Program-made: the position numbers and the translations under genes | Part shown: piece after piece, positions 22,602 to 54,105 of the stretch | Position numbering within the stretch: position 1 is the stretch's first letter | Layout: every line of letters starts with the position of its first letter | From: Lachnospiraceae bacterium | GTDB lineage: Bacteria; Bacillota; Clostridia; Lachnospirales; Lachnospiraceae | Assembly: GCA_024682835.1 (NCBI GenBank) | Contig: JAIKYU010000099.1 | Location: 59,850 to 123,849, forward strand | Length of the DNA stretch: 64,000 nt | Reading direction: 5' to 3' | The notes under the pieces: generated by a model | Told to the model about the DNA's origin: nothing | Database searches by the model: none | Seen by the model: the letters and a program-made list of their open reading frames with translations, nothing else

Positions 22602-23351
22602 TCAGCCGTTGATCTCAATCGTTACCTTCTCTGGCGCCGCCCCTTCGCTTCCTTCTGATTCCTCAAGAAACGCCGGATTCACGAGAGCGGCATACACGCC
22701 GCCAAGCCTGTACAGTTCCTTTGCAATCATGCCCGCATAGAGCATGGCGCCCGCGACCTTCAGGTGCGAATTGTCAATCTGCCCCTCCGGCGCGCCGCGG
22801 AATTCTCCCGGTTTTGTGATCATGTAGAAGGGCTTTGACGCCTCGTCTCCGACGCTGGCGAGCCATGCGCGGGAAAGATGAAAGAGATCGATCACAGGCA
22901 CCTTGAACCGCTCGCCTGCCGCAAGCATCGCTTCCGCATAGGGCGCATGGCCGGTTTCCTGTAGTCTCCCCTGTTCGTCAAACACCCGTCGTTCCACCGG
23001 CGTGATAAAAACCGGATACGCTTTATGGGCACGGGCCGTGTCGGCAAAGCGCAGGAGGTTGTCCGTGTAGGCGCCCGAAGGATCTGTATAGCGCGACGGA
23101 TCCTGTCTTTTCTCATCGTTATGTCCAAACTGGACAAACAGAAAATCACCGGCGGCAAGCGATGCGTCGATCTCATCAAGCCTTCCCTCATCCAGGAAGC
23201 TCTTCGTGCTTCGCCCGTTCACTGCATGATTATACACCAGCACATCCCTCTGTGCATAGCGGTCAAACATCTGTGCAATGCCTGTCTGCGGATAGGTCAG
23301 ACAACTGTTTGCCGCCGAAGTCGAATCACCCGCCCAGAATATCATTCTCAT
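22602..23351 (-). CDS. CE12-type rhamnogalacturonan acetylesterase (SGNH hydrolase)
   Basis: Deacetylates rhamnogalacturonan-type oligosaccharides. The 249-aa protein has all SGNH blocks: nucleophile IFWAGDSTSAANS, NHAVNGRSTKSF, the FVQFGHNDEK Asn block and the catalytic Asp-His pair in GQIDNSHLKVAG. PVFITPVERRVF is also typical of CE12. It has no signal peptide, so it acts on imported oligosaccharides. GAGGTGA 6-7 nt upstream supports the ATG at 23351 instead of the track start nine codons earlier. Compare the degenerate relative at 51.9 kb. Confidence 0.9.
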   Translation of the reverse strand: MRMIFWAGDSTSAANSCLTYPQTGIAQMFDRYAQRDVLVYNHAVNGRSTKSFLDEGRLDEIDASLAAGDFLFVQFGHNDEKRQDPSRYTDPSGAYTDNLLRFADTARAHKAYPVFITPVERRVFDEQGRLQETGHAPYAEAMLAAGERFKVPVIDLFHLSRAWLASVGDEASKPFYMITKPGEFRGAPEGQIDNSHLKVAGAMLYAGMIAKELYRLGGVYAALVNPAFLEESEGSEGAAPEKVTIEING

Positions 23352-23446
23352 TAAAATCACCTCATCGATGGGATCCACGCATCCTATGCGTATTCATCCA
23401 TCATTCATGCGATATCTGTGTCCGGTGCCAGCCGGTCCGGATGGTC

Positions 23447-38386: not shown

Positions 38387-41300
38387 TTACTGTCTTCTCT
38401 TTACCTTGTCCCTGTACATGGCGTTGTCAGCCTTGCGAATCATCTCCTCCACATCCAGCTTCCGGTGAATCATGGCATGGACGCTCCCGACACTCGCGAC
38501 GACGGGATACGGCTTGTTCGAAAGAGACGAATTCCTTTTTATCGCCTCATCCAGGCGCTTTCTCACCAGATCGGCGGGCAGCGCCACCTCCTTTTCGGTG
38601 ATCAGGGCGCAGGCAAATTCATCTCCGCCGTATCTGGCACAGAAGCCGTTTCTTGCGGAGAAATGACGGATTGCCTCCGCCATGCCGCAGATGGCAAGAT
38701 CGCCCTCGTTATGTCCGTAATGGTCGTTGATGTGCTTTAAGCCGTCCATGTCGATGGAGAAGATCGTGAGCACCTTTCCATCATTAGCAGGATTGGCCAG
38801 TTCCTCCGACAGACGGGAGAAGAAGCCTCTCCGGTTGTAGATGCCGGTCAGATAGTCGCTCACCGCTCTCTTTTCAATCTCGGCATTGGCTTCCCTGAGG
38901 TGCCTGTTGAGCATGCCGAGCCGTCTGTTGTTGAGCACCGTATTGAGGGCGGTGGATAAGAACATGCCGATCTCGTCGCAGCGGCGCACATCCCTGTTCG
39001 TGATGCCCGTCATGCCCTGAGCCAGATAGCCGTAGCTGGTGTCGGTGGTGGAAAGGAGCCGGAACATCAGCAGACGATAGGGCTGCTCCTTGGACAGCAC
39101 CTCATCCAGGCAGGGCATGACCTCGGTAACAGGAAACTCGCCGCCCATGATTTCCGTGTTCACATCATCATGATACTTCAGGAAGGTGTGGAATCTCCTG
39201 CCGGAAGCACCTCCTCCGAGGTGATCCTCCAGCAGCTCCGAGTAGAGTCCCACAAAATGGAACTGCTTTTTCCATACCCACAGGGTTGCCTGAGCCTCTC
39301 TGGCCAGCATTTCCAGGTCATCCAGAATGGCCGCACGGGACGTCATCTGGTTCATCAGCCGCATGCTCCAGTTGACGTCCATAAAGGAATCCGCAAATTC
39401 GGAAACCACCCCGCGGGAGAGGATCTGATCCTCCATCAGACAGCCGCAGGAGCGCCGTCTCTTCTGTATGCCCTGCAGGGGATGTTCCTCACCGTCGGGA
39501 TCTGTGGGACGCCCCTCACGGATTCTATCAATGACAAAGCGTGCGCCCTCCGCAAAATCCGTTCCCACACTGGTGATGGATGGATTGTGCACCAGGCCCG
39601 CCTGAATGTCGTCAAAACCTGTGACAATCACATCCTCAGGCACCCGAAAGCCCCGCTCATTCAGGACTTCGCAGGCTGCGACGGCCATCGTATCATTGGC
39701 GCAGACGACCGCATCCGGAAGGCCGTCCTCATCCAGGAACTCCTCCATGGCCGTCCGTGCGGGTCTGTCCCAGAATTCGCCGTGTTTGATTCTTTTCTCC
39801 TCAACCGGAATCCCGTGACCGGCAAGAACCTCCCGATATGCTTCCTCCCGTTCATCGGAATAGGTATTTCCCTTCACACCGGCGATCAGATCGATGCGTC
39901 TGCAGCCATGCTCACGGATCACATGCTCCACCATTTCCTTAAAGCTCTCTTTATAGGCAAAGGGGAGATTGATGCACCCCGGATAGGACTGCTCAAACGC
40001 AAACACCGGCACCCGCTGTTTTCTGCCGATCTCCACGATCGCGTCGCAGAACTTCGTGTTCGAGAGCATGGACACCACCATCAGGACGATTCCAACGTAA
40101 TCCATCTCCTTTGCCAGTTCAATCAGTTCCGTCTCCCGGTTGGAGAGCCGCTCTTCCTTCACGTCATCGACGGAAAAGGAATATACACAGACGATGTAGT
40201 CCTCCCCGCAGGCGTCGGTCAGTGCCTTCAGGAATCCGAATTCATGCTCCTCATACAACGCGCCGCCGAACACCGCGATGACCTTCTTCCTGTGCTCCGC
40301 CCGGCTCTCCTCCGAAGCAGGCGCTTTTCCCTTCCACAGGCCAAGGGTGCCGGTTCCGATATAGAAGCTTCCCGCCTCTCTGCTGTCCCCCTCGATGCTG
40401 TTGATCTCCCCGAAGCGATGGTCGTCGTCATTGAGCCGGTGCCAGGTCGCCCCGTCGTCATCCGAGCGGAAAAATCCATGAATTCCTTCCATCACCCCGC
40501 AGATATACAGCGCCTTGGGACATCCGATGTAAGAGGCTTCCCCGTGAAGAAGTCCCAGACCCACACGAAACACCTGCGTCTGCCCGTCGGTGATCCGCCC
40601 GGCTCTCGCCGTGTCCGAATACTGATCATACTCCAGCTTCCACAGTCCCTGCTCCGCTGCAGCGATGTAGAATTTTCCGGCAAAGCCGCTGTCACCCCGG
40701 ATTTCCGTCCGGTTCGCACAGTCCACCTTACCGAATTCCAGATCTGGAAATCCCGGAATCTCTTTTTCCTGAAAGCTTTCGCCGTAGTCCGTGCTGACAA
40801 AGAACCGCCCGTGCTCGCCAAAGCCGTAAAACACGCCGGGCACGACACGGTCGGCAAAAACCTTCAGCCGTTCAGGCTCCTTCGCATCCGGCAGTCCTGT
40901 GACCCTCACCTTCTTCCAGGGACTGACCTCTCCCCTTGCGGCAGGTCCGGGCGGCGCGTCCTTTTTCGAGGCATCCGGAAACGGAGCATCCGCGGCATGC
41001 CACACGACGACGCAGTCCGCCGGCAGGTCATTTCCATCCGCCAGAGAGAGAATCAATGTGTGTCCGTCCGCCCCCACAGCGGTCCAGCCCACATTGACGT
41101 TTGGATGCTCGATTCCGGCGCACAGCTCATCCATCCGCTTTGTCAGGCCGTAGGGAAGCGGAAGTCTTCTGAAATGCCCGGCGCCGTCGAGGCTTACAAT
41201 CAATCCGCCAATCGTCTTTCCGGTCCAGTTGCCTCTGGCCGTCACGGCGATCATGGACGGATCGTTATCCGGGTAGTCCGCATTCAGACAGGTGATGTAT

Positions 41301-42733
41301 CGGTTTCCCTGATCATCGGCAAAGGAATTCTCACACTCTTTATCCGTGTCCGTAAAGGCAAAGCCGCCAAGATCACCTAAAATGTCGATAACCCGCACAT
41401 CGCCGGAGGGCGGACTGTAGAGATTTAAATGCACCGTCTCCTCAATTCCCCCGCAGGCATCGGAAAAGCTTCTGTCCGCCGAGGTAAAGTCTTTCCCGGT
41501 AAACACGCCCGTGCCTGTGTTAATCCACACCCTGTCCGGATCAAAGGGATCGATCTTCACATCGCTGTGCCAGTGAAGAAGGGATCCTCCGCCGTTGTAG
41601 CACGGCTTCATATAGCTGGTGTGAAAGTGGAGATTGCCCTTCTTCAGCCCATCCAGCGCTCTTTCCCAGTGAGCGCCAAAGTCGTGGGAAATGTAGAGCA
41701 GATCCCCCTCGTCCCGGCAGAGGGTCGCCGCAGCAAGAAGCCCTGGCCTTGACTGGCAGACGCTGATTCCGCCAAAGCCGTAGGTAAGGTCCTCATTGGT
41801 GTATTCCGGCGTGATATCCTCATAGGGAATCTCATCGAAGGGAAGGTCTTTGAGGTCACTTACGGCGTACCGGATGATCCGCCCGCCCAGCTGATCTCCC
41901 GTGTCGCAGCTGTAGCCCATCTCCCGCAGATAGTTGCGCGCGCCCGTGTTGGAGAGCGTCACGTAGACGTGGTGTTTGTCCGAACAGATTCGCTGCGCCA
42001 CGTATCCGGAGAGGAGGGATTTCGGTATCGGATGATTCTCCGGGGAGGGAAGCTTTTCAAAGGTCTCTCCGCCGTCGCGGGAGATATAGAGGCTGTGCCC
42101 CCGCATATCTTCCTTCATGAGGGAGATGCCTGCCGTGCCCGCAATGAGGACGGAGGCGTCGTCGCTCATCCAGACAAGCGTCAGATACTTCTCGCCGCAC
42201 ACGGATCGTTTATCCCAGCTCTCGCCGCCGTCTCTCGTGATGAGCAGGCCGTCCCGCTGGGAAGCAAAATACAGCGTCCCTGCATCCGCCGGGGAAACGA
42301 TCAGCCGGTCGCCGGTGCCCCGGCCCGGGAGGTTGCCGTGGATGTAGCAAGGGATGTTTTTCCTCTGAAAGCTTTCTCCCCTGTCGTTTGATATGGCCAG
42401 GATTCCGCAGGGCCTCTCTGCCAGATGCTCGGAGTCCTTTGACCCCCACCATCCTCTGCCGTCGCCGCAGGCCACATACAGAAGATCCGGATCCCTGTCA
42501 TCCAGCGCGATGGCCAGAGGAAAGGTCTCGCTTAAATCGTCCATGCCCGCCCGCTCGATGAGACTCTTCCATTTTGCGCTCTCCGGATCATAGCGGTAGG
42601 TTCCGCCGATGTCCGTCCGGGCATACAGGATGCCGGGCACTTTTCTGTGGAACCGGAATCCCGTCACATACCCGCCGCCGGGGATGGGGAGATGCGAGTA
42701 GTCATAAGGCAGCGGTTTTCTACTGATCAGCAT
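38387..42733 (-). CDS. GH74-type beta-propeller / LacI-type sensor / GGDEF cyclase fusion
   Basis: A single 1448-aa reading frame with three recognisable modules. Residues 1-800 are a GH74 xyloglucanase-type double beta-propeller: YVTGFRFHRKVPGILYARTD, ARTDIGGTYRYD (candidate catalytic Asp41), several Asp-box strands (SNDRGES, ITRDGGESW, VSTDYGESF, RSDDDGATW), and GDLGGF near residue 452, matching the second catalytic Asp. Residues ~815-1085 form a LacI/PBP1 effector domain (KKVIAVFGGALYE ... VPEDVIVTGFDDIQAGL, then RRSCGC) without an HTH. A ~190-residue linker/sensor follows. Residues ~1285-1448 form a GGDEF domain with intact RYGGDEFACAL and no visible RxxD I-site. There is no signal peptide or TM helix, so it should be cytoplasmic, unlike secreted GH74 enzymes. 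The ATG at 42733 has GGAGG 6 nt upstream and overlaps the kinase stop by 14 nt. Confidence 0.87.
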   Translation of the reverse strand: MLISRKPLPYDYSHLPIPGGGYVTGFRFHRKVPGILYARTDIGGTYRYDPESAKWKSLIERAGMDDLSETFPLAIALDDRDPDLLYVACGDGRGWWGSKDSEHLAERPCGILAISNDRGESFQRKNIPCYIHGNLPGRGTGDRLIVSPADAGTLYFASQRDGLLITRDGGESWDKRSVCGEKYLTLVWMSDDASVLIAGTAGISLMKEDMRGHSLYISRDGGETFEKLPSPENHPIPKSLLSGYVAQRICSDKHHVYVTLSNTGARNYLREMGYSCDTGDQLGGRIIRYAVSDLKDLPFDEIPYEDITPEYTNEDLTYGFGGISVCQSRPGLLAAATLCRDEGDLLYISHDFGAHWERALDGLKKGNLHFHTSYMKPCYNGGGSLLHWHSDVKIDPFDPDRVWINTGTGVFTGKDFTSADRSFSDACGGIEETVHLNLYSPPSGDVRVIDILGDLGGFAFTDTDKECENSFADDQGNRYITCLNADYPDNDPSMIAVTARGNWTGKTIGGLIVSLDGAGHFRRLPLPYGLTKRMDELCAGIEHPNVNVGWTAVGADGHTLILSLADGNDLPADCVVVWHAADAPFPDASKKDAPPGPAARGEVSPWKKVRVTGLPDAKEPERLKVFADRVVPGVFYGFGEHGRFFVSTDYGESFQEKEIPGFPDLEFGKVDCANRTEIRGDSGFAGKFYIAAAEQGLWKLEYDQYSDTARAGRITDGQTQVFRVGLGLLHGEASYIGCPKALYICGVMEGIHGFFRSDDDGATWHRLNDDDHRFGEINSIEGDSREAGSFYIGTGTLGLWKGKAPASEESRAEHRKKVIAVFGGALYEEHEFGFLKALTDACGEDYIVCVYSFSVDDVKEERLSNRETELIELAKEMDYVGIVLMVVSMLSNTKFCDAIVEIGRKQRVPVFAFEQSYPGCINLPFAYKESFKEMVEHVIREHGCRRIDLIAGVKGNTYSDEREEAYREVLAGHGIPVEEKRIKHGEFWDRPARTAMEEFLDEDGLPDAVVCANDTMAVAACEVLNERGFRVPEDVIVTGFDDIQAGLVHNPSITSVGTDFAEGARFVIDRIREGRPTDPDGEEHPLQGIQKRRRSCGCLMEDQILSRGVVSEFADSFMDVNWSMRLMNQMTSRAAILDDLEMLAREAQATLWVWKKQFHFVGLYSELLEDHLGGGASGRRFHTFLKYHDDVNTEIMGGEFPVTEVMPCLDEVLSKEQPYRLLMFRLLSTTDTSYGYLAQGMTGITNRDVRRCDEIGMFLSTALNTVLNNRRLGMLNRHLREANAEIEKRAVSDYLTGIYNRRGFFSRLSEELANPANDGKVLTIFSIDMDGLKHINDHYGHNEGDLAICGMAEAIRHFSARNGFCARYGGDEFACALITEKEVALPADLVRKRLDEAIKRNSSLSNKPYPVVASVGSVHAMIHRKLDVEEMIRKADNAMYRDKVKRRQ

Positions 42734-44252
42734 TTGTCGCCTCCAACTCAAACCAGAATTCTACACCGTTATCATAATCAATCACCCCGTATCCGCGGTG
42801 AAGGGTCTCCATAATGGCCTTCACGATCGACAGGCCGATTCCGCTTCCGCCGTCGTCTCTGGTTCTGGCCTTATCCACCTTGTAAAACTTATCCCAGATC
42901 TGCCCCATGCTCTCCGGCGGGATCGGTTCTCCCGTGTTGAAGACGGAGATCCTTACGGTTTCCTCCTCCCGGCGCTCCATGCGCACCTCCAGGATTTTTT
43001 CCCCGTCGAGGTGCTTCAGGGCATTGCCGACATAATTCTGCAGCACCGTCTCCACCATGAATTCATCCGCCCAGACGTAGACGGGCGGATAGTCCTCCAT
43101 CCGCACATTCGCACCGGCCTTCTGAATCAGGAGCTGCGCCGAGCGGAGATAATTGCGGATCAGCTCCGTGATATCAAACCGCGTAAAGTTCATGGGATTT
43201 TCACCGGATTCCAGATGAGAGAGCGTCAGAAGCTCCTTTACAAGACGGTTCATCTTCCCCGCCTCATCGAGAATCACCCGACAGTATTCCTGTCTGCTCT
43301 CCTCGTCATCCGTCACCCCTTCCACGAGGCCCTCCGCATATCCCTGGATGAGCGCGATGGGGGTCTTCAGTTCATGCGAGACATCGGAAACAAAGGTCCT
43401 GCGTTCCGCGTCGATCTCCTCCTTTTTCTCTATGTCCCGAAGAAGCTTCGTGTTGGCGGTCTTCAGTTCGGAAATGGTCTGCTCCAGCGCGGAGGACAGC
43501 TCATTGAGATTTTCCCCGAGAAGATCCAGCTCATTTCCCGTCCGATCCGAATACTTCGCCTCAAAATTCAGCTTTTTCATTTCCTCGGACAGCGCGGTGA
43601 GCCTGGTGACAGGTCTGGTCATCCGTCCGGTGATAAAGAAGATCAGAATCGCGCCGAGCGCAGCCGAAAAGAGTCCCGCGGCGATCATAAAGCGGCTGCT
43701 TAAGGCTGCCGACACGTCAATGCTGTCCAGGGGGCTCTCGATCATACACATGTTTCCGTTATCCAGATAGCCCCAGAGAATCAGATACTGGGTGCCGGAC
43801 TGCCGGTAGTTTTCTTTTTGCAGTGTATAAGTGTTCGTTTTTTCGATAACATCCACATCGGCATAACTGTCCTCGTGCCCGAGGATATGGTTCCACAGAA
43901 GCACGGCCATACGCTCCGTGTCATCGACGGCCGATGATTTGACCGTCTGCGATTCGCCATCGAGAATCAGCAGCCGGATTTCATATTGCGTGCTGATTTT
44001 CGACAGCTCCGCATCGAAGGCGCTGCTTGCAATCTCCCCGCGCATAAGCGACGTGTTGACACCCTTCCAGGCGCCGCGAACCGCTTCCGTACGCTTCCGG
44101 AGATAGTACGGAAGAAGCAGCAGGCTGTTCGCCAGTATGCAGAGTATGATCGTGCAGGCCATGATTGCAAGAAAGATCAGGGTAAACTGTCTTCTGATTG
44201 ATCCTGTGCGTCGTCTGTCCGATGGTTTCGTGGTTTTGGAATGTGTGATCAT
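42720..44252 (-). CDS. Transmembrane sensor histidine kinase (no adjacent response regulator)
   Basis: The 510-aa protein has TM1 (about 22-50), a ~140-residue extracytoplasmic sensor region, TM2 (about 195-215, ending FITGRMTRP), HAMP, then a HisKA domain with FVSDVSHELKTPIALIQGYAEGL and an HATPase with NYVGNALKHL (N box) and DDGGSGIGLSIVKAIM (G box). It looks fully functional. Such kinases normally follow an OmpR-type regulator gene, but upstream lies an EF-G paralogue and a terminator. Its end overlaps the GH74-LacI-GGDEF start, implying joint expression. The ATG at 44252 is favoured by AAGGGA plus alignment; the track start 36 codons upstream reads non-protein-like Arg/Pro-rich sequence. 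Confidence 0.92.
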   Translation of the reverse strand: MITHSKTTKPSDRRRTGSIRRQFTLIFLAIMACTIILCILANSLLLLPYYLRKRTEAVRGAWKGVNTSLMRGEIASSAFDAELSKISTQYEIRLLILDGESQTVKSSAVDDTERMAVLLWNHILGHEDSYADVDVIEKTNTYTLQKENYRQSGTQYLILWGYLDNGNMCMIESPLDSIDVSAALSSRFMIAAGLFSAALGAILIFFITGRMTRPVTRLTALSEEMKKLNFEAKYSDRTGNELDLLGENLNELSSALEQTISELKTANTKLLRDIEKKEEIDAERRTFVSDVSHELKTPIALIQGYAEGLVEGVTDDEESRQEYCRVILDEAGKMNRLVKELLTLSHLESGENPMNFTRFDITELIRNYLRSAQLLIQKAGANVRMEDYPPVYVWADEFMVETVLQNYVGNALKHLDGEKILEVRMERREEETVRISVFNTGEPIPPESMGQIWDKFYKVDKARTRDDGGSGIGLSIVKAIMETLHRGYGVIDYDNGVEFWFELEATNADQ

Positions 44253-47700: not shown

Positions 47701-48996
47701 TTACTCTTTGATTCCCTTAAGCGCCTGCGTCAGATCCTCAATCAGATCCGCCGCGTCCTCCAGTCCGCAGGACATGCGCACCAGTCCGGCAGGGATTCCC
47801 GCCGCGGTCAGCTGTTCGTCATTCATCTGCCTGTGCGTTGAGGTAGCCGGATTCAGACAGCAGCTTCTCGCATCCGCCACATGGGTCTCGATGGCAGCGA
47901 TCTTCAGCCGTTTCATAAAGGCTTCCGCGGCTTTTCTCCCGCCTTTGAGTTCGAAGGAAACGACGCCGCAGCCGCCGTCGGGCAGATACTTTTGAGCCAG
48001 AGCGTGATACGGATCTGTCGGAAGACCGGAAAAATGAACCGTTTCCACTTCCGTCCTGCCGGAGAGGAATTCCGCCACGGCCTGTCCGTTTTCCGCGTGC
48101 CGCTTCATCCGCACATGCAGCGATTCCAGACCGAGATTGAGATAAAAGGCATGCTGCGGGGACTGGATGCAGCCGAAATCCCGCATGAGCTGTGCCGTAC
48201 ATTTGGTGATAAAGGCACCCTCCCTGCCGAATTTTTCCGCATAGGTGATCCCGTGATAGGATTCGTCCGGCGTGGTGAGGCCCGGGAAGAGCTCCGCGTG
48301 CGCCATCCAGTCAAATCTGCCGGAATCGACAATCGCTCCGCCCACTGCCGTTCCGTGGCCGTCCATATATTTTGTTGTGGAATGGGTGACGATGTCCGCC
48401 CCCCATTCGATGGGTCTGCAGTGCACCGGCGTGGGGAAGGTGTTGTCCACGATGAGGGGCACCCCGTGATCATGCGCCGCTTTGGCAAACTTTTCAATAT
48501 CCAGTACCGTCAGTGCGGGATTGGCGATCGTCTCGCCGAAAACCGCGCGGGTGTTGTCCTGAAACGCCGCATTCAACTCGTCTTCCGTGCAGTCAGGCGA
48601 AACAAAGGTCACATCGATCCCCATTTTCTTCATCGTCACGGAAATCAGATTGAAGGTGCCGCCGTAGATCGATGAAGAGGAAACAATGTGGCTTCCGCAT
48701 TCACAGATATTGAACAGGGCAAAGAAATTCGCCGCCTGCCCGGAGCTGGTGAGCATGCCGGCCGCACCGCCCTCCAGCTCGGCGATCTTGGCCGCCACAT
48801 AATCATTCGTCGGGTTCTGCAGCCTCGTGTAGAAATATCCGGTGGCCTCCAGGTCAAACAGCTTTCCCATGTCCTCGCTGGTGTCATACTTGAAGGTGGT
48901 GGACTGCACGATGGGTATCTGTCTTGGCTCTCCGTTGCCCGGCCTGTACCCCGCCTGCACACACCTGGTACCGATTCGCAGATGATTGTCTTTCAT
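47701..48996 (-). CDS. O-acetylhomoserine sulfhydrylase-type PLP enzyme (MetY family)
   Basis: Probably makes homocysteine from O-acetylhomoserine and sulfide. The 431-aa Cys/Met-metabolism PLP enzyme has YFYTRLQNPTND, TSSGQAANFF, the cofactor Asp segment VDNTFPTPVHCRPIEWGAD and the PLP lysine in THSTTKYMDGHG. The C-terminal STHRQM segment is typical. At ~430 aa it fits MetY rather than MetB/MetC (~380 aa). No riboswitch is visible in the short upstream gap (69 nt). GGAAAGGAG precedes the start. Confidence 0.9.
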   Translation of the reverse strand: MKDNHLRIGTRCVQAGYRPGNGEPRQIPIVQSTTFKYDTSEDMGKLFDLEATGYFYTRLQNPTNDYVAAKIAELEGGAAGMLTSSGQAANFFALFNICECGSHIVSSSSIYGGTFNLISVTMKKMGIDVTFVSPDCTEDELNAAFQDNTRAVFGETIANPALTVLDIEKFAKAAHDHGVPLIVDNTFPTPVHCRPIEWGADIVTHSTTKYMDGHGTAVGGAIVDSGRFDWMAHAELFPGLTTPDESYHGITYAEKFGREGAFITKCTAQLMRDFGCIQSPQHAFYLNLGLESLHVRMKRHAENGQAVAEFLSGRTEVETVHFSGLPTDPYHALAQKYLPDGGCGVVSFELKGGRKAAEAFMKRLKIAAIETHVADARSCCLNPATSTHRQMNDEQLTAAGIPAGLVRMSCGLEDAADLIEDLTQALKGIKE

Positions 48997-49065
48997 TGAT
49001 GACTGCTCCTTTCCTGTATCCTTGCATACACGATGATATTCGTAATCAAAATGAGTCGCCGTTTA

Positions 49066-49272
49066 TCATTTGGTTTCTGCGGTCTCCTCATTGATGATCT
49101 GAAGGGTTTTTTCCACGCCCTCGAGATGGCGGCTGCACTGTACGGCCAGCTCCGCCCCCTCCCTGTAGAGCTCCATGGAGGCTTTCAGCTCGATATCCTT
49201 TGCTGACAGACTCTTATTGATCTCCTCCAGGCGGTTTAATGCCTCGTCTACATTAAATTCCTTCTCTTCCAT
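49066..49272 (-). CDS. xseB: Exodeoxyribonuclease VII small subunit
   Basis: The 68-aa XseB homologue has the family pattern FNVDEALNRLEEINKSL and ELKASMELYREGAELAVQC. It binds the large subunit encoded just upstream (50 nt gap). Length is typical. Confidence 0.94.
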   Translation of the reverse strand: MEEKEFNVDEALNRLEEINKSLSAKDIELKASMELYREGAELAVQCSRHLEGVEKTLQIINEETAETK

Positions 49273-49322
49273 TCTTTCTTCCTTTGTCCTGTCTGACCTT
49301 CACGTATCGGGTGTATGTCCCG

Positions 49323-50918
49323 TCACTCGCTGCCACCGGCGTTCAAAACGGTTTCTGATTTTCTGACCGCCGTCACCCGCGCGTCGATCTCACCGTCATG
49401 GATGACCACTGAAAAGGGATCTCCGACAGCAAGCAGGTCGACACCGGTCACCGGGCTGCCCTTTGCGGAAAGATAACCGAAGCCTCTGACCAGCTTGGCC
49501 GTAGGCGAGAGTCCGTGAAGATTTGCGATCAGCACCTCGCATCTGCGTCTTTTTTCCGCGTAGATCTGGTCCATTCTGCCGCGCATCCGTTCCTTGGCGA
49601 TCTCAAGGCGGTTCTTTCTCTCCTTAAGCCTTGCTTCCGGACTGTTCTTCTCAAGCTCTGCCTGCAGTCTGTCAAGACGCATCCGCTTCTCCCTGAGGGA
49701 GCGCCATGCCTTTTCCGCAATCTGCTCCTTCAGTTCCCGTACTCTGCGGATCTCGGACATCACGTCGAAAATCACATGCTGCGCTGCATCCGTCGGCGTC
49801 GCGACCCGTAAATCCGCCACACCATCCACCAGAGGGGTGTGGCCTTCATGTCCCACCGCTGAAACAATCGGTGTCTTCGCAGCAAACACGGTCCGCACCA
49901 GCGCTTCATCGTCATAGACCAGGAGTTCTTCATCCGAACCGCCGCCGCGGCCGACGATAATGACGTCCGTCTGTGCACGGTCCAGCTGTCTGATGCCCTC
50001 GATGATCGATTCGACCGCACGCACACCCTGCACCTGCACATGATACAGGATGAGCTGGACATACGGATTTCTCTCTCCGGCTACCTTACAGATATCCCTG
50101 ATCGCCTGACCGTTCTTTGAGGTTACGATGCCGACTCTGCCGGCATGCCTGGGAATCTCCTTGTGATGGCTGATGTCAAAGAGGCCTTCGTTTTGAAGCT
50201 TTGCCTTTAACTGCTCATATTTGAGCTTTGCATCGCCGTCGCCCAGATTCAGAATCCGGGAGACATGGATTTTGGACGTGCCGAAGGGCTCATAGAATTC
50301 AAAGCTCCCTCTTACCGCAACTTCCTGTCCCTTCTTTAACGTGAAGGAAAGGGCTGCGGCCGCATCCCTTTCCCACAGAAAACAGGAAATCCTTGCATGT
50401 TCATCCTTGATGTCAAAATAGTAATGAGTCGTGTGACCGTTGTAGTTGGTCACCTCCCCCTTCACCCAGAAATCCCGAAAGCAGGGAATCCCCGCCATGG
50501 TGCTTCCGATCATCTCGTTGAGCTTCGAGACGGTCATGCACGCGGGCTCATCCGAAGCGTCCTCTGCGGTTCCATTTCCGGAAGAAGGTTTCCTGTCTCC
50601 GGCCGGCTGACTACCGGAAACAGGAGCCATTTCTCCGAAGGTTCCGCTCTGGGTAGAAAACGCGCCTGCCACGGGCTGACCGGTGACAGCCGCATCCGTT
50701 CCGCCGGGTTTAGACAGTCCCCGATTGACAGGCGCATACCCGATAAACCTGGCATATTTATGCCCGGCTCTGCTGAGCGTCATCTCGAATTCGACTTCGT
50801 TTCCGATTGCATTCCGGATCGAAGGCAGGCCGTAGAGCTTTCTTGAGCCCTGCTCCGAACGGATCCAGACGACATGCCTGCCGTTTTCTTCCGTAATGCT
50901 TTCTATGACTCCCCGCAT
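49323..50918 (-). CDS. xseA: Exodeoxyribonuclease VII large subunit with extra N-terminal domain
   Basis: Catalytic subunit of the ssDNA exonuclease. The canonical protein begins at about residue 127 (MTVSKLNEMIGSTMAGIPCFRDFWVKGEVTNY, OB fold), followed by the catalytic domain (GIVTSKNGQAIRDI, VGRGGGSDEELLVYDD, SAVGHEGHTPLVDGVADLRVATP) and the coiled-coil region. The first ~60 residues (GVIESITEENGRHVVWIRSE ... KYARFIGYAPV) form a distinct small beta-rich domain joined by a ~65-residue Gly/Ser/Pro linker. The ATG at 50918 has only a weak SD, but an internal start at residue 128 has none better. The extension is unusual for XseA. Confidence 0.9.
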   Translation of the reverse strand: MRGVIESITEENGRHVVWIRSEQGSRKLYGLPSIRNAIGNEVEFEMTLSRAGHKYARFIGYAPVNRGLSKPGGTDAAVTGQPVAGAFSTQSGTFGEMAPVSGSQPAGDRKPSSGNGTAEDASDEPACMTVSKLNEMIGSTMAGIPCFRDFWVKGEVTNYNGHTTHYYFDIKDEHARISCFLWERDAAAALSFTLKKGQEVAVRGSFEFYEPFGTSKIHVSRILNLGDGDAKLKYEQLKAKLQNEGLFDISHHKEIPRHAGRVGIVTSKNGQAIRDICKVAGERNPYVQLILYHVQVQGVRAVESIIEGIRQLDRAQTDVIIVGRGGGSDEELLVYDDEALVRTVFAAKTPIVSAVGHEGHTPLVDGVADLRVATPTDAAQHVIFDVMSEIRRVRELKEQIAEKAWRSLREKRMRLDRLQAELEKNSPEARLKERKNRLEIAKERMRGRMDQIYAEKRRRCEVLIANLHGLSPTAKLVRGFGYLSAKGSPVTGVDLLAVGDPFSVVIHDGEIDARVTAVRKSETVLNAGGSE

Positions 50919-50957
50919 CGAATTCTCTTACCGGAATGTGCCGTCCGCGGATCGCTC

Positions 50958-51596
50958 TCAGATGGTGGAATAGCCGAAGCCGTTGCAGATAGCATCTACC
51001 GGAACACCGGCCTTACAAAGCGGGCAGTTTTCCGGCTTGTGGCTCGCATAATCGGGCAGATCGTGGACCGTGTACAGTGCGCGGATCGGCGTGTCGTCGA
51101 TATGGGTGGCCTGGGAGTAGATCGCGGAAATACCTACGGTCTGTCCCTGGTAGTAGCGCACCGAGCGGATGGCGCTCTGCAGCGTCGAACCCGTGGTCGC
51201 CGTGTCAATCAGGATGAGCACGTGCTTGCCTTTGATCATGTGCTGGTTGTTTTCACGAAACATCATCTGTCCGCTGTTGTTGTACTCCGGGCTGGTGATG
51301 TACATCGTCTTATGGGAATTGGCCGAGATAATTCCCGCCATGGTGAGCTTGTTGGCCAGATAGGAGCCGACCACCTCCATGCCGTTTAAGCAGAGGATTG
51401 TGTCGATCACATCGGAGGCCAGATACATTTCCGCCATCTCCTCGCCGGTGGCTCTCGCCTCGCGCTGTCTGGACTTCATATCCGTCAGATCCATGTAGTA
51501 ATTGACGTGGGAATTGGGTGTGATGAAGTGTCCCGGAACGTAGCGGAGCACCACATCCTTGTTGCGACTGTAGTCGATCTTTTTGTAATCCTGCAT
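50958..51596 (-). CDS. Phosphoribosyltransferase-family protein (OPRTase-like)
   Basis: The 212-aa protein has a type I PRTase core; the PRPP loop reads HVLILIDTATTGSTLQSA in place of the usual VDDVxTTG, so its acidic pair is altered. The C-terminus carries CPLCKAG, a possible half zinc site. It resembles proteins annotated as orotate phosphoribosyltransferase-like in Clostridia, but no pyrimidine genes are nearby and the true substrate is unknown. It is preceded by its own promoter and is divergent from the SGNH-like gene. Confidence 0.72.
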   Translation of the reverse strand: MQDYKKIDYSRNKDVVLRYVPGHFITPNSHVNYYMDLTDMKSRQREARATGEEMAEMYLASDVIDTILCLNGMEVVGSYLANKLTMAGIISANSHKTMYITSPEYNNSGQMMFRENNQHMIKGKHVLILIDTATTGSTLQSAIRSVRYYQGQTVGISAIYSQATHIDDTPIRALYTVHDLPDYASHKPENCPLCKAGVPVDAICNGFGYSTI

Positions 51597-51681
51597 GTCT
51601 CTCCTCCTTTATCGTTCGGATACGCTGCGCTTATCGCGCGGATGCCGGTCGATCGGACGGCCGGTTCCAGAATTCATATTT

Positions 51682-51710
51682 ATTATACCAGAATTCGCGA
51701 TGTGTGACAA
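51682..51710 (-). promoter_or_regulatory. Promoter of the phosphoribosyltransferase gene
   Basis: On the minus strand TTGTCA and TATAAT are separated by 17 nt. The 290-nt divergent gap holds this promoter, the opposite one at 51818, and no gene that I can see. Confidence 0.8.
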
Positions 51711-51817
51711 ACCCGAATCAGCCTTGCTCAAATCCCCATCGGCAGGAAAAAAGCTCATGGACATGATCCACCATGCAGCAGGTGCGTGTCCCGGGGAGAA
51801 ACCTGAACGGATACAGA

Positions 51818-51847
51818 TTGACAGTCCGGTTGGGTAGGAAATATAAT
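51818..51847 (+). promoter_or_regulatory. Perfect SigA promoter of the SGNH-like gene
   Basis: TTGACA and TATAAT separated by 18 nt, about 33 nt upstream of the predicted start of transcription-to-ATG leader. Both hexamers match consensus exactly. Confidence 0.85.
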
Positions 51848-51886
51848 CGAAAATATCAGTAATCCAAGTTTCAAATGAGGTTTTCC

Positions 51887-52945
51887 ATGAACGAAGCCAC
51901 ATCCGTAACGCCTTTTTCCGCAGCATATTTTTCGGGAACGCCGGATGCAGACGCCGGTCAGGCAATGCTGCTCTCCGACACCGGCGCCGGCAATTTTACC
52001 GTCCGTCTCACGCTGACTGCCAGACGGAACGCCGCCCCGGCCGATGCGTTTGTTTTCCTCGGGCATCGGACACTGGCAGCCGCCATTCCTTCCTTTAAGG
52101 GCTCCTGTGAGGTCTCCGGAACGGTGCACGTGGGTGCCAGGGCTTCCGGGCGTTTTGATTCCGTCACCCCCGGTCAGCTTGCGCTCACGCTTCTTGCGCC
52201 CTCCCTTTTCCTCTCCGACTGCCGGATTGCGGAGACGGATGTTCCCACCGTTCATCTGACGGGGAGCGACCTCGTCGCGGACGAACCCGCGGATCTGCAC
52301 TATGATCCGTTTGGGAGCCCTGCCGGCTGGGGGCAGATGCTGCCCTATTTTCTCTCCGGGAGATTTGCCGTCGCCAATCATGCCGTTCCGGGAACGGATG
52401 CGGCCATTCTTCGTGATCCCGCCTGCCGGAGCAGATTGCTCGAGGAGTTTCATCCCGGCGATTTTGTTCTGCTGCAGTTTGGACACCCGGAAGAAGACGG
52501 CAAAAACGCTTCAGACGACACTCCCTTCCGCGAACAGCTCGGCCACTTCATCGGCGAGATCCGGGCACGCGACGCCCTGCCGGTGTTAATTACCCCTCCC
52601 GCAGGAAACACCTTTTCCGACGGCGGCTATGTGGATCTGCAGAAGGACGAGGCCTCTGACATCATTGCCGTGGGGGAACGCAGCCGGGTTCCGGTGCTGG
52701 AGCTCCATGCGAGGACGGTGGCCGTCATGGAGCAGAATACGAAGGATAAGACCGCCGCGCTCTTTCTGCCCGCTGACCCTTCACCGACAAACGACGCCGG
52801 TGCTTTCCTTTCGGCCCGCATCATCGCCTCCGAGCTGAAGCGTGTCTGCGGCTGGGCGGATGATTACCAGGCGCTCGCCCAGGCGGTTGACAGGAGCACC
52901 TTGCGGGACGATGATCCGGCCGCGATGCTTTTTCTGAATCTTTGA
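51887..52945 (+). CDS. CE12-like protein with all catalytic motifs lost (pseudoenzyme)
   Basis: The 352-aa protein aligns with two-domain rhamnogalacturonan acetylesterases: an N-terminal beta-sandwich (about 1-110), then an SGNH fold recognisable from PAGWGQMLPYF, VANHAVPGT, GDFVLLQFGH, LPVLITPPAG and GAFLSARIIASEL. Each catalytic block is changed: GDS is TGSDLVAD, the Asn block GHND is GHPEE, RSSKSF is TDAAIL, and the Asp-x-x-His pair is DPSPTN. It is thus probably not a hydrolase, yet the frame is intact and it has a perfect promoter. GAGG 7 nt before the ATG at 51887 supports that start. It may bind carbohydrate or have a new role. Confidence 0.82.
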   Translation: MNEATSVTPFSAAYFSGTPDADAGQAMLLSDTGAGNFTVRLTLTARRNAAPADAFVFLGHRTLAAAIPSFKGSCEVSGTVHVGARASGRFDSVTPGQLALTLLAPSLFLSDCRIAETDVPTVHLTGSDLVADEPADLHYDPFGSPAGWGQMLPYFLSGRFAVANHAVPGTDAAILRDPACRSRLLEEFHPGDFVLLQFGHPEEDGKNASDDTPFREQLGHFIGEIRARDALPVLITPPAGNTFSDGGYVDLQKDEASDIIAVGERSRVPVLELHARTVAVMEQNTKDKTAALFLPADPSPTNDAGAFLSARIIASELKRVCGWADDYQALAQAVDRSTLRDDDPAAMLFLNL

Positions 52946-52970
52946 CGCATCATTCGTATCATGCTATACT
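52942..52970 (+). promoter_or_regulatory. Promoter of tyrA-aroA
   Basis: TTGACG and TATACT separated by 17 nt. The -35 box overlaps the stop codon of the preceding gene. The predicted start of transcription falls within about 0-2 nt of the tyrA ATG at 52978. Confidence 0.78.
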
Positions 52971-52977
52971 ACTTCCC

Positions 52978-54105
52978 ATGAAAAGCAGCAGCAAAAAAAT
53001 GAAGATTCCGTCAGGAATTGAAACCATTGCCTTCATCGGCCTGGGCCTCATCGGCGGTTCCATCGCCAAGGCGATCCGGGCCTTTCCGCGCAGATATCAT
53101 CTCATCGCCTGGAACCCCCATGCGGATCGCGTGGATGCAGCCATCGAAGAGGGAATCATCGACGGTAAGCTCTCCTCTCTCTCCGATCCGATGCTTGCGG
53201 AAGCGGATCTCATCTATCTGTGCGCCCCGGTGGAAAAGAATCAGAAGAATCTGGAGATGATCCTTCCGCTTTTAAAGGACAGCGTGATCATCACCGATAT
53301 CGGCAGCGTCAAGACAAATATCCATGAAGCGGCGATCAGGCTTGGCATCGAGGACCGGTTTGTGGGCGGTCATCCCATGGCCGGAAGTGAGCGCACCGGC
53401 TATTTTGCCTCCAAGGAGCATCTGCTGGAGAATGCCTACTACGTGATCACTGCCTCGCCAAAAGCCGACGAAGCGCGCATCCGCTGCATGTGTGCCTTTG
53501 CGGCCGCCATCGGCGCGATTCCCATCCGAATGGATTATAAGGAGCACGACCGGATTGTCGCGGCTGTGTCCCATGTGCCGCACGTCCTGGCCGCCTCTCT
53601 TGTCCATCTCGTGGAGGACAACGACAACCCCGAACACCTCATGAAGACCATCGCCGCAGGCGGCTTTAAGGACATCACCCGAATCGCCTCCTCATCCCCG
53701 CAGATGTGGGAGGAGATCTGCATGACCAACGGGGACAATATCACGGATTTTCTGGACCGGCTCATTGCTTCCCTAAAAGACACCCGGGAAGCGATCAAAA
53801 ACAAACAGGCTTTATCCGTCAACGCGTTTTTCTCCGGTGCCAGAGATTACCGGGATTCCTTCATTGAAGCCTCCAGCGGTCCCATCAAACGGGTCTTTGC
53901 GCTCCACATCGACATCGCCGATGAACCGGGCGTCATTGCTTCCGTATCTACCCTTCTGGCCGTGCACACCATCAATATCCGCAATATCGGGATCACCCAC
54001 AACCGGGAGGTTGAGCGGGGTGCGCTCCGGATCGAGGTGGAGACCGCCAAGGACGCCGAAACAGCAAGAAAAGTGCTGTCACAACACGGCTACACCGTTA
54101 CCTGA
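52978..54105 (+). CDS. tyrA: Prephenate dehydrogenase with ACT domain
   Basis: Converts prephenate to 4-hydroxyphenylpyruvate for tyrosine synthesis. The ~375-aa protein has the NAD fold AFIGLGLIGGSIAKAIR, the catalytic region TDIGSVKTNIHEAA and GGHPMAGSERTGY, and a C-terminal ACT domain (about 300-373, HIDIADEPGVIASVSTLL), consistent with feedback control by tyrosine. No SD precedes either the ATG at 52978 or the next one (52999), and the promoter is immediately upstream, so the message may be leaderless. Confidence 0.93.
   Translation: MKSSSKKMKIPSGIETIAFIGLGLIGGSIAKAIRAFPRRYHLIAWNPHADRVDAAIEEGIIDGKLSSLSDPMLAEADLIYLCAPVEKNQKNLEMILPLLKDSVIITDIGSVKTNIHEAAIRLGIEDRFVGGHPMAGSERTGYFASKEHLLENAYYVITASPKADEARIRCMCAFAAAIGAIPIRMDYKEHDRIVAAVSHVPHVLAASLVHLVEDNDNPEHLMKTIAAGGFKDITRIASSSPQMWEEICMTNGDNITDFLDRLIASLKDTREAIKNKQALSVNAFFSGARDYRDSFIEASSGPIKRVFALHIDIADEPGVIASVSTLLAVHTINIRNIGITHNREVERGALRIEVETAKDAETARKVLSQHGYTVT

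Follow-up and report, generated by a model that had tools for sequence, protein, structure and literature searches.

An intact gene on the forward strand at positions 51887-52945 of the window (the whole 64,000-nucleotide stretch of Lachnospiraceae bacterium DNA analysed here) very probably encodes a conserved CE12-derived pseudoenzyme, retained for a non-catalytic job whose link to pectin/rhamnogalacturonan catabolism is only probable. The best reading of the evidence is that this pseudoenzyme, an intact gene in a gut-type bacterium, is restricted to the genus and is under purifying selection.

Fold and catalytic residues

The open reading frame runs from an ATG at 51887 to a stop at 52945 and holds 352 codons with no internal stops. 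The gene and the features in and around it are as follows.

51818-51847, + strand: sigma-70-type promoter TTGACA-18-TATAAT, 12/12 match to consensus
51877-51880, + strand: ribosome-binding-like GAGG, 6 nt 5' of the ATG
51887-52945, + strand: probable CE12-derived pseudoenzyme gene, 352 aa, signal peptide not apparent
51956-52249, + strand: N-terminal beta domain, aa 24-121, conserved, IPSFKGSCEVSGTVHVG (from predicted beta strands and conservation)
52262-52273, + strand: block I remnant GSDL, aa 126-129, in place of GDST; nucleophile Ser replaced by Asp128 (alignment)
52391-52414, + strand: block II remnant GTDAAILR, aa 169-176, in place of GLTTESFR; Gly169 retained (alignment)
52481-52492, + strand: block III remnant GHPE, aa 199-202, in place of GHND; Asn replaced by Pro201 (alignment)
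52604-52606, + strand: Gly240, in place of an Arg invariant in 24/24 intact homologues (alignment)
52775-52786, + strand: block V remnant DPSP, aa 297-300, in place of DYTH; His replaced by Pro300 (alignment)
52793-52921, + strand: C-terminal segment, aa 303-345, GAFLSARIIASELKRVCGWADDYQALAQAV..., where conservation within the pseudoenzyme clade is highest

The window protein matches YxiM of B. subtilis (PDB 2o14) over residues 92-320 (phmmer, E=3.6e-19) and, weakly, the rhamnogalacturonan acetylesterase (RGAE) of A. aculeatus (phmmer, E=0.014). An AlphaFold2 model (mean pLDDT 72.7, pTM 0.78) predicts the two-domain layout of YxiM, with a beta domain at the N-terminus and an SGNH-type alpha/beta domain after it, and a Foldseek search with this predicted structure returns 2o14 as the best PDB match (E=6e-20) and 1deo as the second (E=5e-12). 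We take the N-terminal beta domain (aa 24-121) to correspond to YxiM's galactose-binding-like jelly roll. The N-terminal part of YxiM has been described in these terms (PMC9487903). Pfam does not place the window protein in the SGNH/GDSL superfamily by its GDSL models, and indeed finds no match for it even at E<=10; the models PF13472/PF00657 give the three orthologues described below 17-22 bits against a cut-off of 32.9, and an intact paralogue 47.9 bits. The protein belongs to CE12 by descent, as indicated by its homology to YxiM and RGAE, its fold, and its place in the phylogeny within the CE12-like family.

Alignment with 24 intact homologues reveals that the window protein has Asp128 in place of the catalytic Ser, Ser in place of Asp127, Pro201 in place of the oxyanion Asn, Gly240 in place of the Arg, and Pro300 in place of the His, each at a column that is invariant (24/24) in the intact set. 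Still present are the block II Gly (Gly169), the His of GHND (His200) and the Asp of DxxH (Asp297), so that of the residues that mark active SGNH hydrolases (Ser of block I, Gly of block II, Asn of block III and His of block V) only Gly169 is found. With neither the Ser nor the His, ordinary SGNH catalysis is impossible; judged by its sequence, the protein is an enzyme-family homologue without the required catalytic residues, as a pseudoenzyme would be, and we infer that it has no catalytic activity.

The catalytic triad of EstSJ, which is nearly identical to its homologue YxiM, is Ser186-Asp354-His357, as supported by mutation, and Arg295 of EstSJ is one of the residues shown to interact with ligand (PMC10189120). 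Like YxiM and EstSJ, which are CE12 proteins, the window protein combines an N-terminal beta domain with an SGNH-type domain and has GWGQMLP and scaffold positions in common with them; unlike EstSJ, which is an active esterase with a predicted signal peptide, it has no Ser or His, and no signal peptide is apparent on reading any of the four degenerate proteins. The matches to YxiM and RGAE in sequence and predicted structure bear out a preliminary description of the protein as CE12-like, and the open frame and perfect promoter noted there are likewise as described. Its statement that every catalytic block had been lost is a slight overstatement: the Ser, Asn, Arg and His are gone, but Gly169, His200 and Asp297 remain.

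Orthologues and selection

A search of 79 genomes of the genus reveals three further full-length relatives with the same losses, in G094 (55% identical to the window protein), G034 (45%) and G015 (44%), and the reading frames are open in all four degenerate members. The four proteins form one clade (support 100/99), and its sister group consists of the intact paralogues G000c and G034c; the window genome (G000) and G034 thus carry both a degenerate and an intact copy. At E<=1e-20 no intact paralogue is found in G094 (95% complete) or G015 (81% complete). The intact paralogue of the window genome (G000:C18:14424-15662, locus L028/L112) is 42% identical to the window protein and can be aligned with it over the full length, with the same domain order and the same C-terminal tail, but it differs in that GDST, GLTTESFR, AHND and DYTHTND are intact and in that it belongs to a GH105-CE12-GH112-PL11 rhamnogalacturonan locus. 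By tyrA identity, the four species fall in a tight subgroup (79-85% to the window), with genomes outside the subgroup at <=66%. The degenerate gene is absent from G092, a genome of the same subgroup (tyrA 84% identical, 86% complete), and a profile search that covered 396 other genomes of the family and 391 of the order brought up no other degenerate member; all its matches were of the intact type and scored far below the clade.

Conservation is inverted in the degenerate clade: the catalytic blocks vary most (22% pairwise identity), and the N-domain (50%) and C-terminal tail (54%) are constrained. In active relatives the catalytic blocks are 72-89% identical, and in the pair of intact paralogues 89%. 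Ser128, Asn201, Arg240, Thr299 and His300, whose columns are 24/24 in the intact homologues, are kept in 0/4 clade members; Gly35, Gly126, Trp148, Asp192, Leu273 and Gly305 are kept in 4/4. Nine residues occur in every one of the four members but in neither paralogue (P51, I67, F70, K71, E116, S315, E316, W323 and D341), and these lie mostly in an IPSFKGSCE loop and an IASE...CGW tail, with none in the old catalytic blocks. Their position, together with the inverted conservation, argues against the rebuilding of an active site in the old pocket and favours a role for the N-domain and tail. These clade-defining residues could also serve folding alone.

Because pairwise dS is saturated or meaningless for most pairs, housekeeping genes included, we used likelihood-ratio tests, codon-position differences and region ratios instead. 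With a codon model on a six-gene tree, omega=1 is rejected for the degenerate clade (lnL -6660.1 vs -6505.3, 2dlnL about 310) and on the window's own terminal branch (2dlnL 22.3), and a single omega across all regions of the degenerate clade is also rejected (2dlnL 36.7, 3 df). Omega in the degenerate clade versus the intact pair is 0.33 vs 0.035 for the blocks, 0.17 vs 0.15 for the N-domain and 0.14 vs 0.21 for the C-terminal part, where the absolute values depend on the branch-length cap, dS being saturated, and the ratios do so much less. In housekeeping genes, dS between the species is near or beyond saturation (the lowest value with the window genome is 1.8, for a metC-like gene), so that a protein identity of 43-55% needs selection. 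The dN of the pseudoenzyme is 0.40-0.49, compared with 0.08-0.20 for tyrA/aroA in the same pairs with the window genome, and this fast protein evolution indicates that the constraint is moderate. By these selection tests, purifying selection has maintained the gene after the loss of the catalytic residues, as expected of a pseudoenzyme.

The core idea of the preliminary description, selection for a non-catalytic role, is upheld by the disarmed orthologues and by the constrained evolution after the loss. The particular roles that it named, carbohydrate binding or regulation, are candidates. It had suggested looking for orthologues with the same substitutions, and relatives that have lost the same residues do exist in three species, with each residue replaced differently. 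It had also named intact orthologues and relaxed dN/dS as the signs of simple pseudogenisation; instead, the orthologues are equally disarmed, and the intact copy is a paralogue.

Genomic context and proposed role

The window pseudoenzyme gene sits between apt/xseA and tyrA-aroA, and its neighbourhood is not conserved among the members: the copy in G034 comes after genes for an ABC sugar transporter and a GH88 protein, the one in G094 is oriented divergently to the gene of a RhaD-like aldolase, an nrdG/nrdD neighbour is common to G015 and G034, and an nhaC neighbour is common to G015 and G094. The intact paralogues of G000 and G034 adjoin a GH105 gene (Pfam GH88) and a GH112-type phosphorylase gene; that of the window genome lies between the two, with a PL11 rhamnogalacturonan lyase nearby. 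Degenerate and intact genes are unlinked. Perfect TTGACA/TATAAT sites number 3 in the window, against a chance expectation of 0.01. The sites upstream of the relatives' copies are weak (10/12 in G094 and G034), and upstream of the degenerate copy of G015 there is no promoter-like site in sense orientation, so a perfect promoter is not something that the clade has conserved; it adds little except that transcription of the window gene is likely.

At 48996-52980 of the window, the metC-like gene and tyrA are separated by xseA, apt and the pseudoenzyme gene; in G034 and G094 the first two are immediate neighbours in divergent orientation. The arrangement is a lineage-specific rearrangement: since the metC-like gene faces tyrA directly in those two genomes, the pseudoenzyme gene has moved to the window site. 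A promoter-like TTGACG-17-TATACT with TG before the second hexamer, at 52942-52970 (+), overlaps the pseudoenzyme stop codon and would serve tyrA-aroA.

We propose that a cytosolic CE12 acetylesterase of the GH105-linked type, active in rhamnogalacturonan-oligosaccharide catabolism, would have been duplicated in a small group of related species, and that the ancestor of one copy would have lost its Ser/Asn/His/Arg machinery. The disarmed copy would then have been kept because its fold, galactose-binding-like N-terminal domain and C-terminal segment were needed, and the old pocket was not. The present protein is probably a cytosolic carbohydrate-binding protein, binding sugar via its N-terminal domain, or a partner or regulator, in either case linked to pectin, as far as the four known clade members indicate. 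We draw the pectin link from the GH105, GH112 and PL11 genes beside the intact paralogue, the ABC transporter and GH88 gene beside the G034 copy, and the RhaD-like aldolase gene beside the G094 copy. The apparent lack of a signal peptide would fit the cytosolic side of RG-I oligosaccharide catabolism (GH105, GH112), as expected. More tentatively, the clade may act in the cytosol as a sensor or regulatory partner in rhamnogalacturonan catabolism, its N-terminal domain reading acetylated or unsaturated pectin fragments and not cutting them.

A pseudogene in the course of being lost, its catalysis dispensable, its sequence drifting and its stops yet to arise, would be consistent with the strong relaxation of the catalytic blocks, with protein evolution 2-4 times faster than that of tyrA/aroA, and with the absence of the gene from G092. 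This is very unlikely, since every frame is open in four species and omega=1 is rejected for the whole clade and for the window's terminal branch. The nonsense share of neutral mutations is about 1.7% in this GC-rich gene, and neutrality predicts about 6 stops at dS 0.33 or about 18 at dS 1, whereas none is present (P(0)=0.003 and 2e-8); the differences between the window and G094 genes at codon positions 1/2/3, at 0.32/0.32/0.60, also argue against drift. Equally hard to sustain, and if anything still less probable, is the view that the protein has remained an enzyme, having gained new catalytic residues within or close to the old pocket. The fold is retained, Asp128 stands where the nucleophile was, and the window copy still has Asp297, His200 and Gly169, but across the four species the Ser position holds D/P/F/R and the His position P/Q/K/L, and G094 lacks most, and G015 part, of block II. 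The old pocket of the four members was searched for conserved replacements as a sign of new catalysis, and it has none, nor does any clade-specific common residue fall within the catalytic blocks.

Pseudoenzymes that partner an active paralogue are generally common, and the presence of both copies in the window genome and G034 would suit a non-catalytic protein obliged to pair with the intact paralogue, as part of a hetero-oligomer or as an allosteric subunit. G094 and G015, however, have the degenerate gene and no intact paralogue at the above threshold, and the two genes are unlinked, which makes obligate pairing distinctly unlikely; given G094, with no intact copy, it is less likely than the cytosolic binding or partner reading. 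A role with no relation to carbohydrates, either moonlighting or purely structural, is favoured by the unconserved neighbourhood and by the aromatic-amino-acid and nucleotide genes that flank the window copy. It is nonetheless unlikely in view of the descent from, and partial linkage to, GH88/GH105/RhaD genes and of the galactose-binding-like domain that the model suggests is retained.

Known pseudoenzymes and further genes of the window

Pseudoenzymes as such are well known and are well studied in eukaryotes; to our knowledge, and from literature searches, few have been documented among bacterial carbohydrate esterases. No CE12 or SGNH pseudoenzyme clade is reported in the open-access literature searched. 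The GH28 pseudoenzymes of phytophagous beetles are likewise inactive duplicated relatives of pectin-degrading enzymes within the pectin pathway, but they are of another fold and family, secreted and animal, and their function has been shown by gene silencing (PMC6549527). With the duplicate, three orthologues that are likewise disarmed and an intact paralogue from the window genome, function after the loss of catalysis is directly testable. Such proteins are missed by annotation pipelines, having no Pfam/NCBIfam family, or would be named esterases.

Two other genes of the window may be mentioned. A single ORF of 1454 aa at 38387-42751 (-) combines an N-terminal BNR/sortilin-type propeller, GH74-like by eye, with a LacI-type sugar-binding domain and a C-terminal GGDEF domain. 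In six related genomes the sensor-GGDEF part occurs as separate proteins of about 650 aa, and the propeller part has no match in those six; the ORF is either a hydrolase-sensor-cyclase fusion or an assembly artefact. At 22602-23378 (-) the window encodes a second, short CE12-like protein, in which the motifs are intact (GDST, GRSTKSF, FGHND and DNSH).
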